Shown: piece after piece, positions 3,134-32,109 of the stretch
Layout: every line of letters starts with the position of its first letter
How positions within the stretch are numbered: the first letter of the stretch is position 1
From: a virus
Direction: 5' to 3' (one strand)
DNA: 33,697 nt
Virus record (IMG/VR): IMGVR_UViG_3300025543_000107
Location: 1-33,697 of that record
The notes under the pieces: generated by a model
What the model was told of the DNA's origin: nothing
What the model saw: only the letters and a program-made list of their open reading frames with translations
The model's database searches: none
Program-made: the position numbers and the translations under genes

Positions 3134-4066
3134 ATGGATACAATATTACTTAGACCACTATTTAGAGCCAAGTACATCGCTGAACAAAAAAATAAAAATA
3201 AATTTAATCAAGGCGGTTTAGCTAATATACAAAAGTTTAATACGGGTGGTTTAAGTGGTTTAACACAAGGAGAAAGACAGGCTATTACTTTAGCGCCTTT
3301 CGTTAAGGCTTTAACAGGTGCTCAAACAAGACCTGGTGAATCTGAAATGTCTGGATTTGCAAGAGCGTTCGGAGAAGGTTTAGGAGGTTTAGGAGCGGCT
3401 AAAAAAGATATAGCTGCAATAGATCAAGTAGAACTAGAAGCATTAAAAGCTATGATGAAGGCAAAACAAGATAAGAATAAAGAACAAACTGATTTAGAAA
3501 AAGAATTTAGAAAAACTTGGAGAGATTCTAAAGTAGTTAAAAATTTTGAAGATGCTCAAGCTGGTTATTCTAGAGTTGTTGCTGGAGCCAATATGGATTC
3601 AAAAGCTGGGGACATAGCTTTGATTTTTGGTTTTATGAAAACATTAGATCCTACATCAGTGGTTAGAGAATCTGAATTTAGCTTAGGAGAAAACGTAGGA
3701 AGTTTCGGAGGAAAAGTAAAAGCATATTGGGATAGTTTTACTGGACAAGGTAGATTAACTCCAGAACAAAGAAAAGAAATAGTAAGTGCGTCTACTCAAC
3801 AATTTGGTACTTATCAAACAGAATTAGATACTTTTAAAGTTAATTTTAATACTAAAGGAAAAGAACTTGGATTTGATGCTGGTAAAGCTATGTTAACAGC
3901 CGATAGAAGACCAAAAGAAATAGTCATAAACGGTAAAAAAATGCCTGTTCCTATGGGTACTAGACTTATTCAAACAAAAAGAGATGATGCAACTGGAAAA
4001 TTAATTAGTGTCTATCAAATGCCTAATGGTTATGTATTTGGAGTAGATGCTAGAAAGGTGGATTAA
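3134..4066 (+). CDS. Virion/ejection protein (310 aa)
   Basis: The N-terminal part carries NQGGLANIQKFNTGG (about residues 25-39). It then has a Gly/Ala region and a long charged helix (KAMMKAKQDKNKEQTDLEKEF). The centre has DIALIFGFMKTLDPTSVVRESEF, a signature seen in many podovirus-type internal or tail-region structural proteins. A strong GGAGG lies 5 bases before the start. The gene ends one base before the next start codon, so the two are tightly coupled. A structural role is inferred from position and signature. Confidence 0.6.
   Translation: MDTILLRPLFRAKYIAEQKNKNKFNQGGLANIQKFNTGGLSGLTQGERQAITLAPFVKALTGAQTRPGESEMSGFARAFGEGLGGLGAAKKDIAAIDQVELEALKAMMKAKQDKNKEQTDLEKEFRKTWRDSKVVKNFEDAQAGYSRVVAGANMDSKAGDIALIFGFMKTLDPTSVVRESEFSLGENVGSFGGKVKAYWDSFTGQGRLTPEQRKEIVSASTQQFGTYQTELDTFKVNFNTKGKELGFDAGKAMLTADRRPKEIVINGKKMPVPMGTRLIQTKRDDATGKLISVYQMPNGYVFGVDARKVD
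3206..3250 (+). repeat. Direct DNA repeat copy 2, coding for the NQGGLAxIQKFNxGG motif
   Basis: Partner of the repeat at 1346-1390, in frame in the 310 aa virion protein. Confidence 0.75.
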
Positions 4067-7291: not shown

Positions 7292-7687
7292 ATGAAAGAA
7301 GGTTTACTTGTACATAAACATTTAATTGTCCGAGCGGAAGCAGTCAGTCCGCCGATGGAAGAAAAATATTTAACAGATTGGTTGTACGATTTTATTAAAT
7401 CTATCAACATGAAAGTTTTGATGGGGCCTTATGTTATTTATCATAATGTACCAGGTAATCGTGGAATTACAGGTGCGGCTATTATTGAAACCTCTCATAT
7501 AGTCATGCATGTCTGGGACGAACCATCTCCTGCCTTAATGCAATTTGATGTCTACTCTTGCGGTGAATTTAATCCAGAAACCATTTGTAAAAAAATTAAA
7601 AAAGATTTTGAAATAACTAAAATAGAATATAAGTTTTTAAATAGAGAAACTGGTTTAGTAGATATTGGCGGTGGACACTTGAAGTAA
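7292..7687 (+). CDS. speD: S-adenosylmethionine decarboxylase-like proenzyme
   Basis: The protein (131 aa) matches the small bacterial/archaeal AdoMet decarboxylase family in length and key residues. The self-cleaving Ser68 that becomes the pyruvoyl group lies in ETSHIVMHVW, with His69 and His73 next to it, and Cys90 in FDVYSCGEF takes the proton-donor position. In polyamine synthesis the enzyme makes decarboxylated SAM for spermidine. Phage copies are known from marine cyanophages. All catalytic positions are kept, so the product should self-process. Related family members with arginine or ornithine decarboxylase activity exist, so the substrate is not certain. It follows the exonuclease by 9 bp. 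Confidence 0.85.
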   Translation: MKEGLLVHKHLIVRAEAVSPPMEEKYLTDWLYDFIKSINMKVLMGPYVIYHNVPGNRGITGAAIIETSHIVMHVWDEPSPALMQFDVYSCGEFNPETICKKIKKDFEITKIEYKFLNRETGLVDIGGGHLK

Positions 7688-7913: not shown

Positions 7914-7943
7914 TTGAAATAACTACGACACATACTATATAAT
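7914..7943 (+). promoter_or_regulatory. Near-consensus sigma70-type promoter for the hsp20 unit
   Basis: TTGAAA at 7914-7919 and TATAAT at 7938-7943 are separated by 18 bases. It is the best-scoring promoter of this type that I see by eye in the window. Transcription would start about 7950, leaving a leader of about 50 bases before hsp20. Confidence 0.75.
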
Positions 7944-7998
7944 AGTCATGGTGCAGCAATGTGGCTGGCCTATAAACTTTGCTTAACAAGGAGGTTAT

Positions 7999-8421
7999 AT
8001 GACAGGTTTAGATTTAATTAATAAAATCCAAAAAGATCTTTGGAATAATTCAGTAAAATTATTTGATAGTTCGTTTGACGAAATGTTTATGAATTTATCA
8101 AAAGTACAATCATTTCCATTTTACAATGTGGTAAAATATGGAAAAGGTGAGTATGGAATTGAACTAGGTCTTGCTGGTTTCAATAAAAAAAATGTAAAAG
8201 TTTCTTTCCAAGATGGTGTATTAACTGTGTCTGGTCAGGTAGATGATGCAGAAAAGGAATATATCCAAAAAGGATTAGCGGCTAGAAAATTCTTCAAACA
8301 ATTTTCATTAAGAAACGATGTAATCGTGGACGAAGCGAAAATGGAAGATGGTGTATTAACAGTTAAGTTAGGTGTTAATGAGCCAGAAGAAATAAAAGTT
8401 AAGGACATTGAAATAAAATAA
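7999..8421 (+). CDS. Small heat-shock protein, Hsp20/alpha-crystallin family
   Basis: The alpha-crystallin domain spans about residues 40-130. It shows the typical strands YGIELGLAGFNKKNVKVSFQDG and VLTVSGQ, the GLAARKFFKQFSLRNDV segment common in IbpA-like proteins, and the A-x-x-x-x-GVLTVKL closing motif (AKMEDGVLTVKLGV). Such proteins hold unfolding proteins as ATP-independent chaperones. Phage copies occur in many marine phages and may help virion assembly or protect proteins during infection. AAGGAGG lies about 5 bases before the start. It is the first gene of a unit bounded by a strong promoter (7914) and a terminator (8780). Confidence 0.92.
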   Translation: MTGLDLINKIQKDLWNNSVKLFDSSFDEMFMNLSKVQSFPFYNVVKYGKGEYGIELGLAGFNKKNVKVSFQDGVLTVSGQVDDAEKEYIQKGLAARKFFKQFSLRNDVIVDEAKMEDGVLTVKLGVNEPEEIKVKDIEIK

Positions 8422-8487
8422 TGTTTCCTTACACAGAGGAGGAACTTGATTTTATTAACAAATAAATTAAGTGCCTAGACTTACATC

Positions 8488-8535
8488 GTCATCCTTCTTA
8501 GGTTACCATTTCGTTCTAACCAAAAGGAGGATGAC
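8488..8535 (+). promoter_or_regulatory. Long RNA hairpin that sequesters the ribosome binding site of the next gene
   Basis: Bases 8488-8499 pair with 8524-8535 over 12 pairs (one G-U). The stem continues, after a 1x2 internal loop, with 8501-8505 pairing to 8517-8521. The apical loop is 11 bases. The Shine-Dalgarno AAGGAGG (8524-8530) lies wholly inside the 3' arm, and the ATG of the 48 aa gene starts on the very next base. Such a fold would block translation until it is melted or bound, as in RNA thermometers. There is no T-run after it, so it is not a terminator. Confidence 0.75.
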
Positions 8536-8682
8536 ATGCCAAAAAAGAAGAAAGAAGAAAACTTAACGGACATCATTGATAGAATAGAAGAAGATCTCAT
8601 TACTTTAAGAGATAAGGTAGAAGAGATGGAAGATCAAGAGGACGACAATGACGATTCTTTTGATGATGAGGACGAAGACTAA
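8536..8682 (+). CDS. Small acidic protein (48 aa)
   Basis: The protein begins with a short basic patch (MPKKKKEEN), then a helix with coiled-coil spacing (DIIDRIEEDLITLRDKVEEM), and ends in a run of Asp/Glu residues. AAAGGAGG gives an excellent ribosome site 5 bases before ATG, but it is buried in the hairpin at 8488-8535. No known family is recognised. The acidic tail might bind basic proteins or mimic DNA, or partner with the Hsp20 encoded before it. These are guesses from composition and context. Confidence 0.75.
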   Translation: MPKKKKEENLTDIIDRIEEDLITLRDKVEEMEDQEDDNDDSFDDEDED

Positions 8683-8695
8683 ATATAAACTCATA

Positions 8696-8776
8696 ATGAA
8701 ACTAACTAATACTCACGTTGCTTACTTAGGCTTAGGTATAATAATGGGGATTTGGATCCTTAATTTGATTGCCTAA
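8696..8776 (+). CDS. 26 aa single-span membrane peptide
   Basis: A short frame codes for a peptide with one hydrophobic helix (AYLGLGIIMGIWILNLIA) after a small polar start (MKLTNTH). It lies 13 bases after the acidic protein and ends just before the terminator. No clear Shine-Dalgarno is seen, so expression is uncertain. Function is unknown. Confidence 0.4.
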   Translation: MKLTNTHVAYLGLGIIMGIWILNLIA

Positions 8777-8779
8777 AAG

Positions 8780-8807
8780 AATAGGGCAACTTAGGTTGCC
8801 CTATTTT
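8780..8807. terminator. Bidirectional rho-independent terminator
   Basis: A perfect 11 bp stem (AATAGGGCAAC with GTTGCCCTATT) and TTAG loop is followed by TTTT on the + strand. On the - strand it is followed by TTCTTTT. It separates the + strand hsp20 unit from the - strand SNF2 gene, whose stop codon lies inside it. Confidence 0.9.
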
Positions 8808-29061: not shown

Positions 29062-29252
29062 TGGTAAGCATGGATAAACTATCAACTATATATACAAACT
29101 TTATCTACAAAAATAATTTAGAGGAAGTGGACGCAGAGACTCTTTTATATTGGGGAGAAGTAGATGAAACTCAAAAAAAATGGTTGAGTAAATTTGTAAA
29201 TGTAGTAAAAAGAAAACAGAATAAAGAAACACAATGGATGAACAAAGAATAA
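29061..29252 (+). CDS. Small phage protein (63 aa)
   Basis: The pattern MDKLSTIYTNFIYKNNLEEVDAETLLYWGEVDETQKKWLSKFVNVV, with Tyr-Thr-x-Phe, a -DAETLL- helix and a closing Trp-Leu helix, recurs in small proteins of many phages and prophages, without known role. AAGGAGG precedes the start and a TAATG overlap links it to the gene before. It overlaps the methyltransferase by 19 bases. Confidence 0.6.
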   Translation: MVSMDKLSTIYTNFIYKNNLEEVDAETLLYWGEVDETQKKWLSKFVNVVKRKQNKETQWMNKE

Positions 29253-30172
29253 CGATACTTCAAGGAAACTGTATTGATAAAATAAAAGATTTACAAGATA
29301 ACTCTATTGATTGTGTAGTTTCTTCTCCTCCTTATTTTGGTTTAAGAGATTATGGAGTGGATGGACAATTTGGTTTAGAAAAAACTTATCAAGATTATAT
29401 TGAGAATACAGTTAAAGTATTTGAGACTTTTAAACCAAAATTAAAAGATACCGCTACTATCTGGTGGAATGTAGGAGATTGTTATTCTAGTGGATCCAGA
29501 ACTTCTACTATTAATCAATCTTTACGAGGTAATACAGATTATGGAGTGACCAGAACACCAGTGCAAAAAAATATTAAAGAAAAAGATTTATTAATGATAC
29601 CTAATAGAGTTGCCATCGCATTACAAGAAGCTGGGTGGTATATTAGATCTGAGATTATTTGGCACAAACCAAATCCGATGCCTGAGAGTGTGAAAGATAG
29701 ACCGACCAACGCACACGAAAAAATATGGATGATCACTAAATCAAAAAAATATTATTACGATGCTGATGCTATTAAAGAACCATGTAAAACTTTTGACACT
29801 AATGTGAGAGACCGAGACACTACTAAACTTAATAACACACCTGGTAGGGCTAAAATGAAAGGTTTGAAAAAAAATAATTATACGATGAAAAACAAGAGAA
29901 ATGTTTGGACTGTTAGCCCCAAACCTTTTAAAGGTGCTCACTTTGCAACTTTCCCTAAAGATTTAATAGAGCCATGTATTAAAGCGGGATGTCCAACAGA
30001 TGGTGTCGTGCTAGATCCATTTGGAGGTTCTGGTACCACAGGATTAGTAGCAGCTATGAATGACAGAAACTGTATTTTAATTGAACTTAATCCAGAATAC
30101 ATCAACATTGCTAAACAAAGGATTAATCAAGAACTAGGTTTATTTAAACAAACAAACAAAGGAGGAAACTAA
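29234..30172 (+). CDS. DNA methyltransferase 1, beta-class, SPPY type (312 aa)
   Basis: The catalytic motif SPPYFGLRDYG lies at 31-41 and the SAM-binding motif LDPFGGSGTTGLVA at 260-273. This order (motif IV first, motif I last) is the beta class. SPPY is usual for N4-cytosine methylases, though some SPPY enzymes methylate adenine. The middle has a variable stretch (residues about 170-225), the likely target-recognition part. No restriction nuclease accompanies it, so it likely protects phage DNA from host enzymes or marks it. Confidence 0.92.
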   Translation: MDEQRITILQGNCIDKIKDLQDNSIDCVVSSPPYFGLRDYGVDGQFGLEKTYQDYIENTVKVFETFKPKLKDTATIWWNVGDCYSSGSRTSTINQSLRGNTDYGVTRTPVQKNIKEKDLLMIPNRVAIALQEAGWYIRSEIIWHKPNPMPESVKDRPTNAHEKIWMITKSKKYYYDADAIKEPCKTFDTNVRDRDTTKLNNTPGRAKMKGLKKNNYTMKNKRNVWTVSPKPFKGAHFATFPKDLIEPCIKAGCPTDGVVLDPFGGSGTTGLVAAMNDRNCILIELNPEYINIAKQRINQELGLFKQTNKGGN

Positions 30173-30173
30173 C

Positions 30174-30653
30174 ATGGGGTACACACACTACTGGAAACAG
30201 TACAGAAACTTTGATGACAGAGAGTGGTCTGAGATCACTAAATTTGTCGGAAGACTTTGTAGATCTAAAGAAGGGAAAGCAATTCTTGGAACTACAGGTC
30301 AAGAGGATAAATTACTCATTGATGATTCAGAAATTATATTCAATGGTAAAAGAAAGTTTAATCAAAATTGTGAAACTTTTTTATTATCTAAAATAAAACC
30401 ATTACCAAGAGAAGAGTACGAAAAGAAAAATGGTTATTCTTTTCAATTTTGTAAGACTAATGAAATGCCTTACGATAAGTTTGTGACAGCAGCATTAATC
30501 ATAGCTAACAACATTGCGCCTAAAGCATTGGTCATAACATCGGATGGATTTAGAGAAGACTGGAGAGATGGACTGGATCTGGCTCATCAATATATGATCG
30601 GTCTTAGCTTGCCTAATAGTTTAAAAAATAAGTCGGAGTATAAAATAGCTTAA
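30174..30653 (+). CDS. 'MGYTHYW' family protein (159 aa)
   Basis: The start MGYTHYWKQYRNF and the later pattern IIFNGKRKFNQNCETFLL...FCKTNEMPYDKFVTAALIIA are those of a conserved family of unknown function in phages, bacteria and some eukaryotes. AAAGGAGG precedes the ATG. It lies between two methyltransferase genes with almost no space (1 base, then a TAATG overlap). This suggests shared expression. Confidence 0.75.
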   Translation: MGYTHYWKQYRNFDDREWSEITKFVGRLCRSKEGKAILGTTGQEDKLLIDDSEIIFNGKRKFNQNCETFLLSKIKPLPREEYEKKNGYSFQFCKTNEMPYDKFVTAALIIANNIAPKALVITSDGFREDWRDGLDLAHQYMIGLSLPNSLKNKSEYKIA

Positions 30654-31330
30654 TGGAATTATTTAATGACGATTGCTTAAAGGTATTACCTACGTTACCA
30701 AAAAATAGTGTAGATTTAATTATAACTTCTCCGCCTTATAATTTAGGAAACAAACATCATACAGGCAATAATTATCATCAAAGTTATAATGATAATTTAC
30801 CTGAGAATATTTACCAAGAACAACAATTAAATTTATTAAATGAATGTTTTAGAATTTTAAAAGACAATGGTTCTATTATGTATAATCACAAAAATAGAAT
30901 TAAAAATGGCATTCAAATTACTCCTTATGAATGGATTTTAAAAAGTAAATTTATAATTAAACAAGAAATTGTTTGGATAAACAGAAGTCAAAATTTTGAT
31001 AAGATTAGATTTTATCCATTTACTGAAAGAGTTTATTGGTTAGCGAAAGATGCAAAAACAAAACTTAATAATGTAATTAACAAACAAGATGTATTTGATT
31101 GGAAGGAATGGAAACCAGAAGGAACTAAAGGACTTCATAAAAGAGCATTTCCTGAAAAAATGGTTAATGATCTAATTAGTTGCTTTCCTAATGCACAATA
31201 TATTTGCGACCCTTATATGGGTTCAGGAACTACTGGAGTTGTTTGTAAAAATCTTAATAGAGAGTTTATTGGTATTGAAATGGATAAGAACTATTTTGAT
31301 ATAGCTAAGAATAGAATAGAAACTATATGA
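30653..31330 (+). CDS. DNA methyltransferase 2, beta-class, SPPY type (225 aa)
   Basis: Catalytic SPPYNLG lies at 26-32 and SAM-binding DPYMGSGTTG at 186-195. At 225 aa it is near the minimal size of this class. The N-terminal 30 residues nearly equal those of the next gene (LFNDDCLKVLPTLP versus LFNNDCLKVLPTIP), so the two arose by duplication. The recognition parts differ. It overlaps the next gene by 4 bases. Confidence 0.92.
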   Translation: MELFNDDCLKVLPTLPKNSVDLIITSPPYNLGNKHHTGNNYHQSYNDNLPENIYQEQQLNLLNECFRILKDNGSIMYNHKNRIKNGIQITPYEWILKSKFIIKQEIVWINRSQNFDKIRFYPFTERVYWLAKDAKTKLNNVINKQDVFDWKEWKPEGTKGLHKRAFPEKMVNDLISCFPNAQYICDPYMGSGTTGVVCKNLNREFIGIEMDKNYFDIAKNRIETI

Positions 31331-32109
31331 AATTATTTAATAATGATTGTCTAAAGGTATTACCGACAATACCTGATAAGTCTATTGATCTAATTATAAC
31401 AAGTCCACCATATAATTTAGGTTTAAAATATAATACTTACGAAGATTCAAAAAGTGATTACATAGAATGGTTAATAAATATTTTTAATAAATGCTGTAAT
31501 GTTTTAAAAGATGATGGTCATTTATTTATTAATTTATCTTCAAGTAAAGAAAATCCATTTACAGCATACAAAATTGCTGAAGGTATAAATTGGAAACTAC
31601 AAAACAATATTATTTGGGCTAAATCAGTTGAAATAGATGGTTATGTTAGGGGTTATAATACACCAACATCAAGTAAAAGATTTTTAAAAAATGGTTGGGA
31701 ACACTTATTTCACTTTACAAAATTTGGTAATACAAAAATAGATTTAAAATCTTCAGGTGTACCTTATAACAACAAATATAATAACGCAGAGAGAATGTTT
31801 AAAAAAACTGGTAAAAAGTGGACAACAACGACTAACTGTTGGCACATAACTTATAAAAGTAAAGCCACTAAAGAAATAACAAAACAAATTGCAGGGGATA
31901 AAAAACACCCAGCTATATTTCCTGAGAATTTAGTAGAAAAATGTTTAAAGGTTTCTGGTATAAAAAAGGGTAAAATTCTTGATCCTTTTATGGGCACAGG
32001 AACAACAGGTTTGGTTGCTAAAAAATACAAACTTAATTTTATAGGTATTGAATTAGACAAAGATTATTTTAAACATGCAAAGAATAGGTTAGAAACTATT
32101 TTGGTATGA
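31327..32109 (+). CDS. DNA methyltransferase 3, beta-class, SPPY type (260 aa)
   Basis: Catalytic SPPYNLG lies at 26-32 and SAM-binding DPFMGTGTTGLVA at 219-231. It is about 35 residues longer than its tandem paralog, mainly in the middle (about 110-190), where target recognition is expected. All three methylases are on one strand in one operon, so at least two, possibly three, DNA motifs may be modified. The ATG overlaps the previous stop. Confidence 0.92.
   Translation: MKLFNNDCLKVLPTIPDKSIDLIITSPPYNLGLKYNTYEDSKSDYIEWLINIFNKCCNVLKDDGHLFINLSSSKENPFTAYKIAEGINWKLQNNIIWAKSVEIDGYVRGYNTPTSSKRFLKNGWEHLFHFTKFGNTKIDLKSSGVPYNNKYNNAERMFKKTGKKWTTTTNCWHITYKSKATKEITKQIAGDKKHPAIFPENLVEKCLKVSGIKKGKILDPFMGTGTTGLVAKKYKLNFIGIELDKDYFKHAKNRLETILV

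Follow-up and report, generated by a model that had tools for sequence, protein, structure and literature searches.

A phage hairpin that buries the ribosome site of an acidic-protein gene behind hsp20, and a ROSE-like leader predicted in front of hsp20

In phage T4, hairpins at the genes e, soc, 49 and I-TevI lock the ribosome site on read-through transcripts, and in e and I-TevI an unlocked transcript is made later from a promoter that lies within the hairpin or next to it (PMC3014915, PMC2988022). Short ROSE-like thermometers such as that of Pseudomonas ibpA consist of two hairpins, with a U(U/C)GCU motif opposite the Shine-Dalgarno sequence (SD) (PMC3669281), and ROSE-type control has so far been described upstream of bacterial small heat shock genes. 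Phage-borne RNA thermometers have precedents in the lambda cIII thermosensor (Altuvia 1989, as cited in PMC4166951) and in the fourU thermometer of the SPbeta prophage gene blyA (PMC10586365), so the novelty that a preliminary description of the present locus had seen in a phage-borne switch of this kind does not extend to phage RNA thermometers as such.

The DNA analysed here (the window) is the whole of a single virus record, IMGVR_UViG_3300025543_000107, positions 1 to 33,697 (33,697 bases). Its gene content is podovirus-like, with a DNA polymerase, a primase, helicases and ejection-like proteins. The features of the hsp20 unit are as follows, the last two being read from the sequence.

7914..7943, + strand: near-consensus hsp20 promoter, TTGAAA-N18-TATAAT, 11/12 consensus bases
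7950..7970, + strand: leader hairpin I, indicated by covariation; outer stem closed by U.G, bulged G, 4-bp inner stem
7975..7996, + strand: leader hairpin II, a predicted thermometer; UUGCU (7979-7983) pairs with the SD AAGGAGG (7988-7994), with G 7981 bulged
7999..8421, + strand: hsp20, small heat shock protein of 140 aa (Pfam HSP20, E 1.7e-15; PHROG 432)
8421..8465, + strand: conserved micro-ORF MFPYTEEELDFINK, whose start overlaps the hsp20 stop (TAATG)
8484..8538, + strand: hairpin burying the ribosome site of the acidic gene, from sequence and fold
8536..8682, + strand: acidic protein gene, 48 aa, basic start and acidic tail, without Pfam or PHROG family
8696..8776, + strand: putative membrane-spanning ORF MKLTNTHVAYLGLGIIMGIWILNLIA, 26 aa, a shorter start of a 42-aa ORF
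8779..8806, no strand assigned: terminator-like inverted repeat AATAGGGCAACTTAGGTTGCCCTATTTT, before a convergent SNF2-type helicase gene

The hsp20 gene has a strong SD of its own, and the promoter motif is found at about -88..-62 in many hsp20 relatives, with 17/80 scored loci reaching 11/12. The micro-ORF, which was missing from the preliminary description of the interval, lies between hsp20 and the hairpin, and a similar short ORF occupies the same place in most hsp20 relatives (variants M.PYNEEEW.FIS and M.PYN.EE..WL). The acidic family, with the pattern M-P/A-KKKKEETIEDILDRIEEDL...acidic tail, is widespread in IMG/VR. A promoter scan of the interval from hsp20 to the acidic gene gave no good match, and on each strand the inverted repeat at 8779..8806 ranks with the most stable local folds. 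Because of the near-consensus hsp20 promoter, the lack of a good intervening promoter and the terminator-like repeat downstream, the acidic gene is probably carried on hsp20 read-through transcripts. Searching phage records with the DNA of the locus returned no match, and none was found there for the acidic protein. Rfam gave nothing at gathering threshold on the whole window, with two weak chance matches at E <= 10 near the locus. Elsewhere in the window, an S-adenosylmethionine decarboxylase (Pfam AdoMet_dc) is phage-encoded at 7292-7687, two genes upstream of hsp20, and three adjacent genes at 29234-30172, 30653-31330 and 31327-32109 all match the PHROG 67 DNA methyltransferase, as if they were tandem paralogues.

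The hairpin has a lower stem of 12 pairs, one of them U.G (8488-8499/8524-8535), and an upper stem of 5 pairs (8501-8505/8517-8521) with an A/AA internal loop and an 11-nt loop. AAGGAGG (8524-8530) is wholly paired within the 3' arm, the ATG (8536-8538) follows directly after the stem, and CAT at 8484-8486 is able to pair with the start codon. Sequence and fold thus bear out what the preliminary description had reported, namely a 12 bp stem and a 5 bp upper stem that enclose the whole SD and hide the ribosome site of the partner gene in an hsp20 unit. The fold of 8420-8560 that it had proposed recovered the hairpin with z = -4.0, and 0/200 shuffles were equally stable. For stability, the hairpin ranks within the top three 55-nt clusters along the + strand of the window (12/16,821 overlapping windows were as stable). 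When the SD and AUG were fixed and the upstream DNA was shuffled, 1/100 shuffles was equally occluded (locus L100, here identical to the window). As in the T4 cases, the initiation region is predicted to be buried on the read-through transcript, a transcript deduced from promoter and gene order.

To see which acidic genes carry the hairpin, hsp20 relatives and acidic-protein relatives were gathered from IMG/VR, and occlusion was tested with SD and start codon kept and only the upstream DNA shuffled. All ten acidic genes directly after hsp20 had an occluded initiation region (10/10, shuffle z 2.9-5.3), whereas 0/33 acidic genes elsewhere exceeded z 2.1 in the same test. The difference gave a Mann-Whitney p of 1.3e-6, which is uncorrected for relatedness and overstates independence, because several of the ten post-hsp20 cases share ancestry. 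Opening of -18..+3 costs 14.8-21.7 kcal/mol in the nine post-hsp20 acidic genes of the main set, 14.8 kcal/mol in L244, and 2.3-14.5 kcal/mol in the remaining loci, where L179/L180, a pair of relatives that lack hsp20, come close to this occlusion at 13.8-14.5 kcal/mol. A natural control is provided by L146, in which the order speD-orf65-acidic-snf2 is kept (snf2 85% identical), hsp20 is absent and a hairpin of this kind is missing as well (4.5 kcal/mol). The occluding hairpins comprise at least four unrelated sequences: the GGTTASCATT type of the window, also present in L102, L103, L106, L089, L114 and L118; that of L182/L008, which in L182 stands before a different acidic protein; that of L144; and that of L243-246, with the start codon within the stem and the SD in the loop. 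Comparing L006 with L008, the acidic tail and downstream DNA are the same, and the gene start and hairpin have jointly been swapped for an unrelated SD-burying sequence. In some cases where another kind of gene follows hsp20 (the L020, L045 and L047 groups), the hairpin there leaves the initiation site uncovered. The preliminary description had counted relatives that keep the protein without the pairing against a function of the hairpin; such relatives do exist, but the pairing is lost only where hsp20 is not upstream, and we regard this check as informative rather than fatal to hairpin function. The hairpin tracks the neighbour hsp20 and not the acidic protein.

The hairpin is also conserved beyond its surroundings. 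L102/L103 share 96-98% identity with the window over the 51-nt hairpin, compared with 65% for hsp20 DNA, 64% for the spacer and 73-79% for the acidic gene, and the few hairpin differences are confined to the internal loop or lie next to it. The lower stem of the more distant relatives L106, L089, L114 and L118 is altered on both sides with pairing retained. Compensating changes, which the preliminary description had suggested looking for in related phages, were found at 9/18 structural columns in a structure-fitted alignment that leans towards structure. In an unfitted MAFFT alignment the covariation was modest (0.300 vs 0.244 shuffled, 23/500), and these counts understate the pairing because MAFFT shifts the hairpin arms. 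There are fourteen G.U pairs, and the + strand fold is more stable in most relatives, which together suggest selection at the RNA level. The strand preference holds for most relatives and not for the window, where the reverse complement of the hairpin folds almost equally well (-22.0 vs -22.3).

Our computation covers structure, conservation with compensating changes, association with an upstream hsp20, and stability. From these we think it rather probable that the hairpin is a cis-acting, non-thermal translational lock, which would keep the acidic gene low or off on the hsp20 read-through message. Transcripts from the strong hsp20 promoter would read through into the acidic gene, the hairpin would form on this message and hide the SD and start-codon region, and hsp20 would be made while the hsp20 message yields little or no acidic protein. 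Repression of translation in the cell is what we infer from this, and its purpose may be the dose or the timing of the acidic protein. As a counterpoint, a fully locked gene would be silent, yet the SD of the acidic gene is perfect. Candidate openers would be another transcription start located past the 5' arm, or else an RNase or trans factor. Two other ways of opening the stem were considered and set aside. Coupling to the micro-ORF is disfavoured: by our reading of the sequences, roughly 15-28 nt separate its stop from the stem, and a ribosome terminating there would be too distant to open the stem directly. In the window the AGGAGG of the micro-ORF could alternatively pair with the 5' arm, but relatives do not keep these letters.

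The first of the openers corresponds to a T4-type timing switch, in which the read-through transcript is locked and a second promoter in or just before the hairpin gives a well-translated transcript without the 5' arm. Such switching is documented in T4 for gene e and for I-TevI, and soc, 49 and mobE of Aeh1 carry hairpins of a similar kind (PMC3014915, PMC2988022). Hairpins of the GGTTASCATT type all carry a TASCAT element unchanged in their loop, and extended -10 promoter-like elements can be discerned inside the hairpin at hsp20 loci with M[AS]YLN genes next. However, the promoter scan lists none on the + strand inside the window hairpin, where the best sigma-70 matches are poor at 8/12 (phage promoters may differ from sigma-70), and the loop motif is found once per genome. 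It is therefore not a shared late promoter, and its single copy rules it out as a genome-wide promoter. We consider the timing switch unlikely for this hairpin.

The M[AS]YLNxNIPP-like genes belong to another family, and when they stand immediately behind hsp20 their start codon lies within the 3' arm of a strong hairpin (L027 ~3470-3500, L064 ~3430-3463, L053 just after hsp20, L185 ~2525-2560). Transcription from the extended -10 promoter-like element within the repeat would produce an almost leaderless message, and both copies without an upstream hsp20 (L135, L179) lack the hairpin (2/2). Just after hsp20 in L020, L045 and L047 there are inverted repeats GGGC(A/G)AGT...ACT(T/C)GCCC with TGATATACT in the middle, which look like a promoter with an operator-like palindrome. 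The TGATATACT motif of these relatives is absent before genes in the window.

The stem could instead be a processing site, at which a host RNase, e.g. RNase III, would separate the hsp20 message from a freed acidic-gene message. RNase III-type processing sites are known in T7 and lambda and would be analogous, and the homologous hairpin group has stems of about 15-18 pairs. But the unrelated hairpins (L182, L144, L244) have main stems of ~8-12 pairs, below typical RNase III sites, and still cover the initiation site, which makes the processing site quite improbable. The hairpin could also protect or end the hsp20 message and overlap the next ribosome site by chance. A strong hairpin does occur within about 150 nt after hsp20 in most relatives, whatever gene follows; however, the 3' arm or stem meets the SD or start codon in all acidic-gene cases despite a spacer of tens of bases, the hairpin is without a U-tract, and no terminator is predicted there, so that we give an hsp20 3'-end element little probability. 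That the hairpin is an RNA thermometer opened by heat, as a buried SD beside an hsp20 gene and some U.G pairs in the anti-SD arm would suggest, is extremely improbable, since perfect SD pairing abolished thermal opening up to 50 C in Pseudomonas ibpA mutants (PMC3669281) and the predicted probability of an open SD, from nearest-neighbour energies alone, is 6e-11 at 37 C, rising to 8e-9 at 50 C.

By the same energies, 18.6 kcal/mol is needed to free the SD hexamer at 15 C, falling to 14.5 at 37 C and 12.0 at 50 C. The preliminary description had called the stem longer than usual thermometers, and it is indeed much tighter: the E. coli ibpA ROSE site needs 3.4 kcal/mol at 37 C by the same calculation, and 2.1-3.4 kcal/mol overall, the value varying with the folded stretch and with which bases are forced open. 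SD and/or start codon are paired at low temperature as in a thermometer, but the computed energies give no opening in the physiological temperature range, and the thermometer-like behaviour that had been proposed for this hairpin is not upheld.

The heat-responsive element of the operon is more likely to be the leader of hsp20, which by our predictions is ROSE-like. This element (7950-7996), whose hairpin I comes right after the promoter, was not mentioned in the preliminary description. Across 64 aligned phage leaders, hairpin I had both-side changes at 7/8 pairs with 96.9% of cells paired, and its covariation was 0.622 vs 0.193 shuffled (0/500) and vs at most 0.107 for slid pairings; RNAalifold recovered the same stem. 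UUGCU was invariant (64/64), the general motif being U(U/C)GCU. In the predicted folds of hairpin II, the G was bulged in 51/64, AGGA was 80% paired and the mean z was -1.8. CTTTGC co-segregated with GGAGGTT (12/13), while GGAGGTT with ACTTGC was found in 0/47, as expected for a paired stem. UYGCU was near the SD in 11/11 isolated phages inspected (S-SM2, P-TIM68, S-T4, S-PRM1, P-RSM6, ACG-2014h, HTVC008M, Mosig, Melnitz-3, HTVC103P and HTVC115P), and, as judged from their letters, the same 11 have a 5' hairpin in which the bulged G usually recurs in the same layout. The leader therefore combines a position upstream of an sHSP gene, U(U/C)GCU opposite the SD in imperfect pairing, and a stable 5' hairpin. 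The Rfam models ROSE and ROSE_2 matched none of the phage leaders tested, while the E. coli ibpA control was recognised as ROSE_2 at 100 bits. Matches of the R1 model upstream of hsp20 arise partly by construction. A literature search, which lacked most subscription journals, found no paper on phage ROSE elements.

Putting the leader and the lock together, we tentatively consider a two-switch operon, which is possible though not the likelier case: temperature or stress would gate hsp20 through a phage-type ROSE element, and whichever acidic gene stands behind hsp20 would be locked by a heat-proof hairpin that evolved convergently. Chaperone production would then not co-induce the neighbouring acidic gene. 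If the leader works as a thermometer, ROSE-type control would extend to phages of cyanobacteria and SAR11, and phage chaperone production would be temperature-gated. The virus family carrying the lock is aquatic, and cyanobacteria and SAR11 are major aquatic bacteria. For the purpose of SD-burying hairpins, the locus offers a clean comparative test, with one gene family that would be locked only when behind hsp20.

The hsp20 leader resembles the ROSE-like element of Pseudomonas ibpA and ROSE_2 of E. coli ibpA (RF01832) in the sHSP gene it precedes, its length of about 50-60 nt, a stable hairpin I, and a weak hairpin II with U(U/C)GCU facing the SD. Unlike the Rfam ROSE models, of which they fall short, the phage leaders have their own hairpin I with a bulged G. 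The acidic-gene hairpin differs from ibpA ROSE in having no U(U/C)GCU motif and in being far too stable. It shares with SPbeta blyA and lambda cIII a phage mRNA structure at the ribosome site, but those structures are thermolabile or alternating, whereas here there is a single very stable stem. The hairpins of T4 e, soc, 49 and I-TevI and of Aeh1 mobE are alike in that a phage gene with a strong SD has its SD and/or AUG in a stable stem on read-in transcripts; unlike them, the acidic-gene hairpin stands behind hsp20 in a podovirus-like phage, and an embedded or adjacent late promoter would be hypothetical for it. The acidic-gene hairpin is an SD-sequestering phage hairpin, a known kind, and what makes it interesting is that its presence goes with the neighbouring hsp20 and not with the gene it would control.
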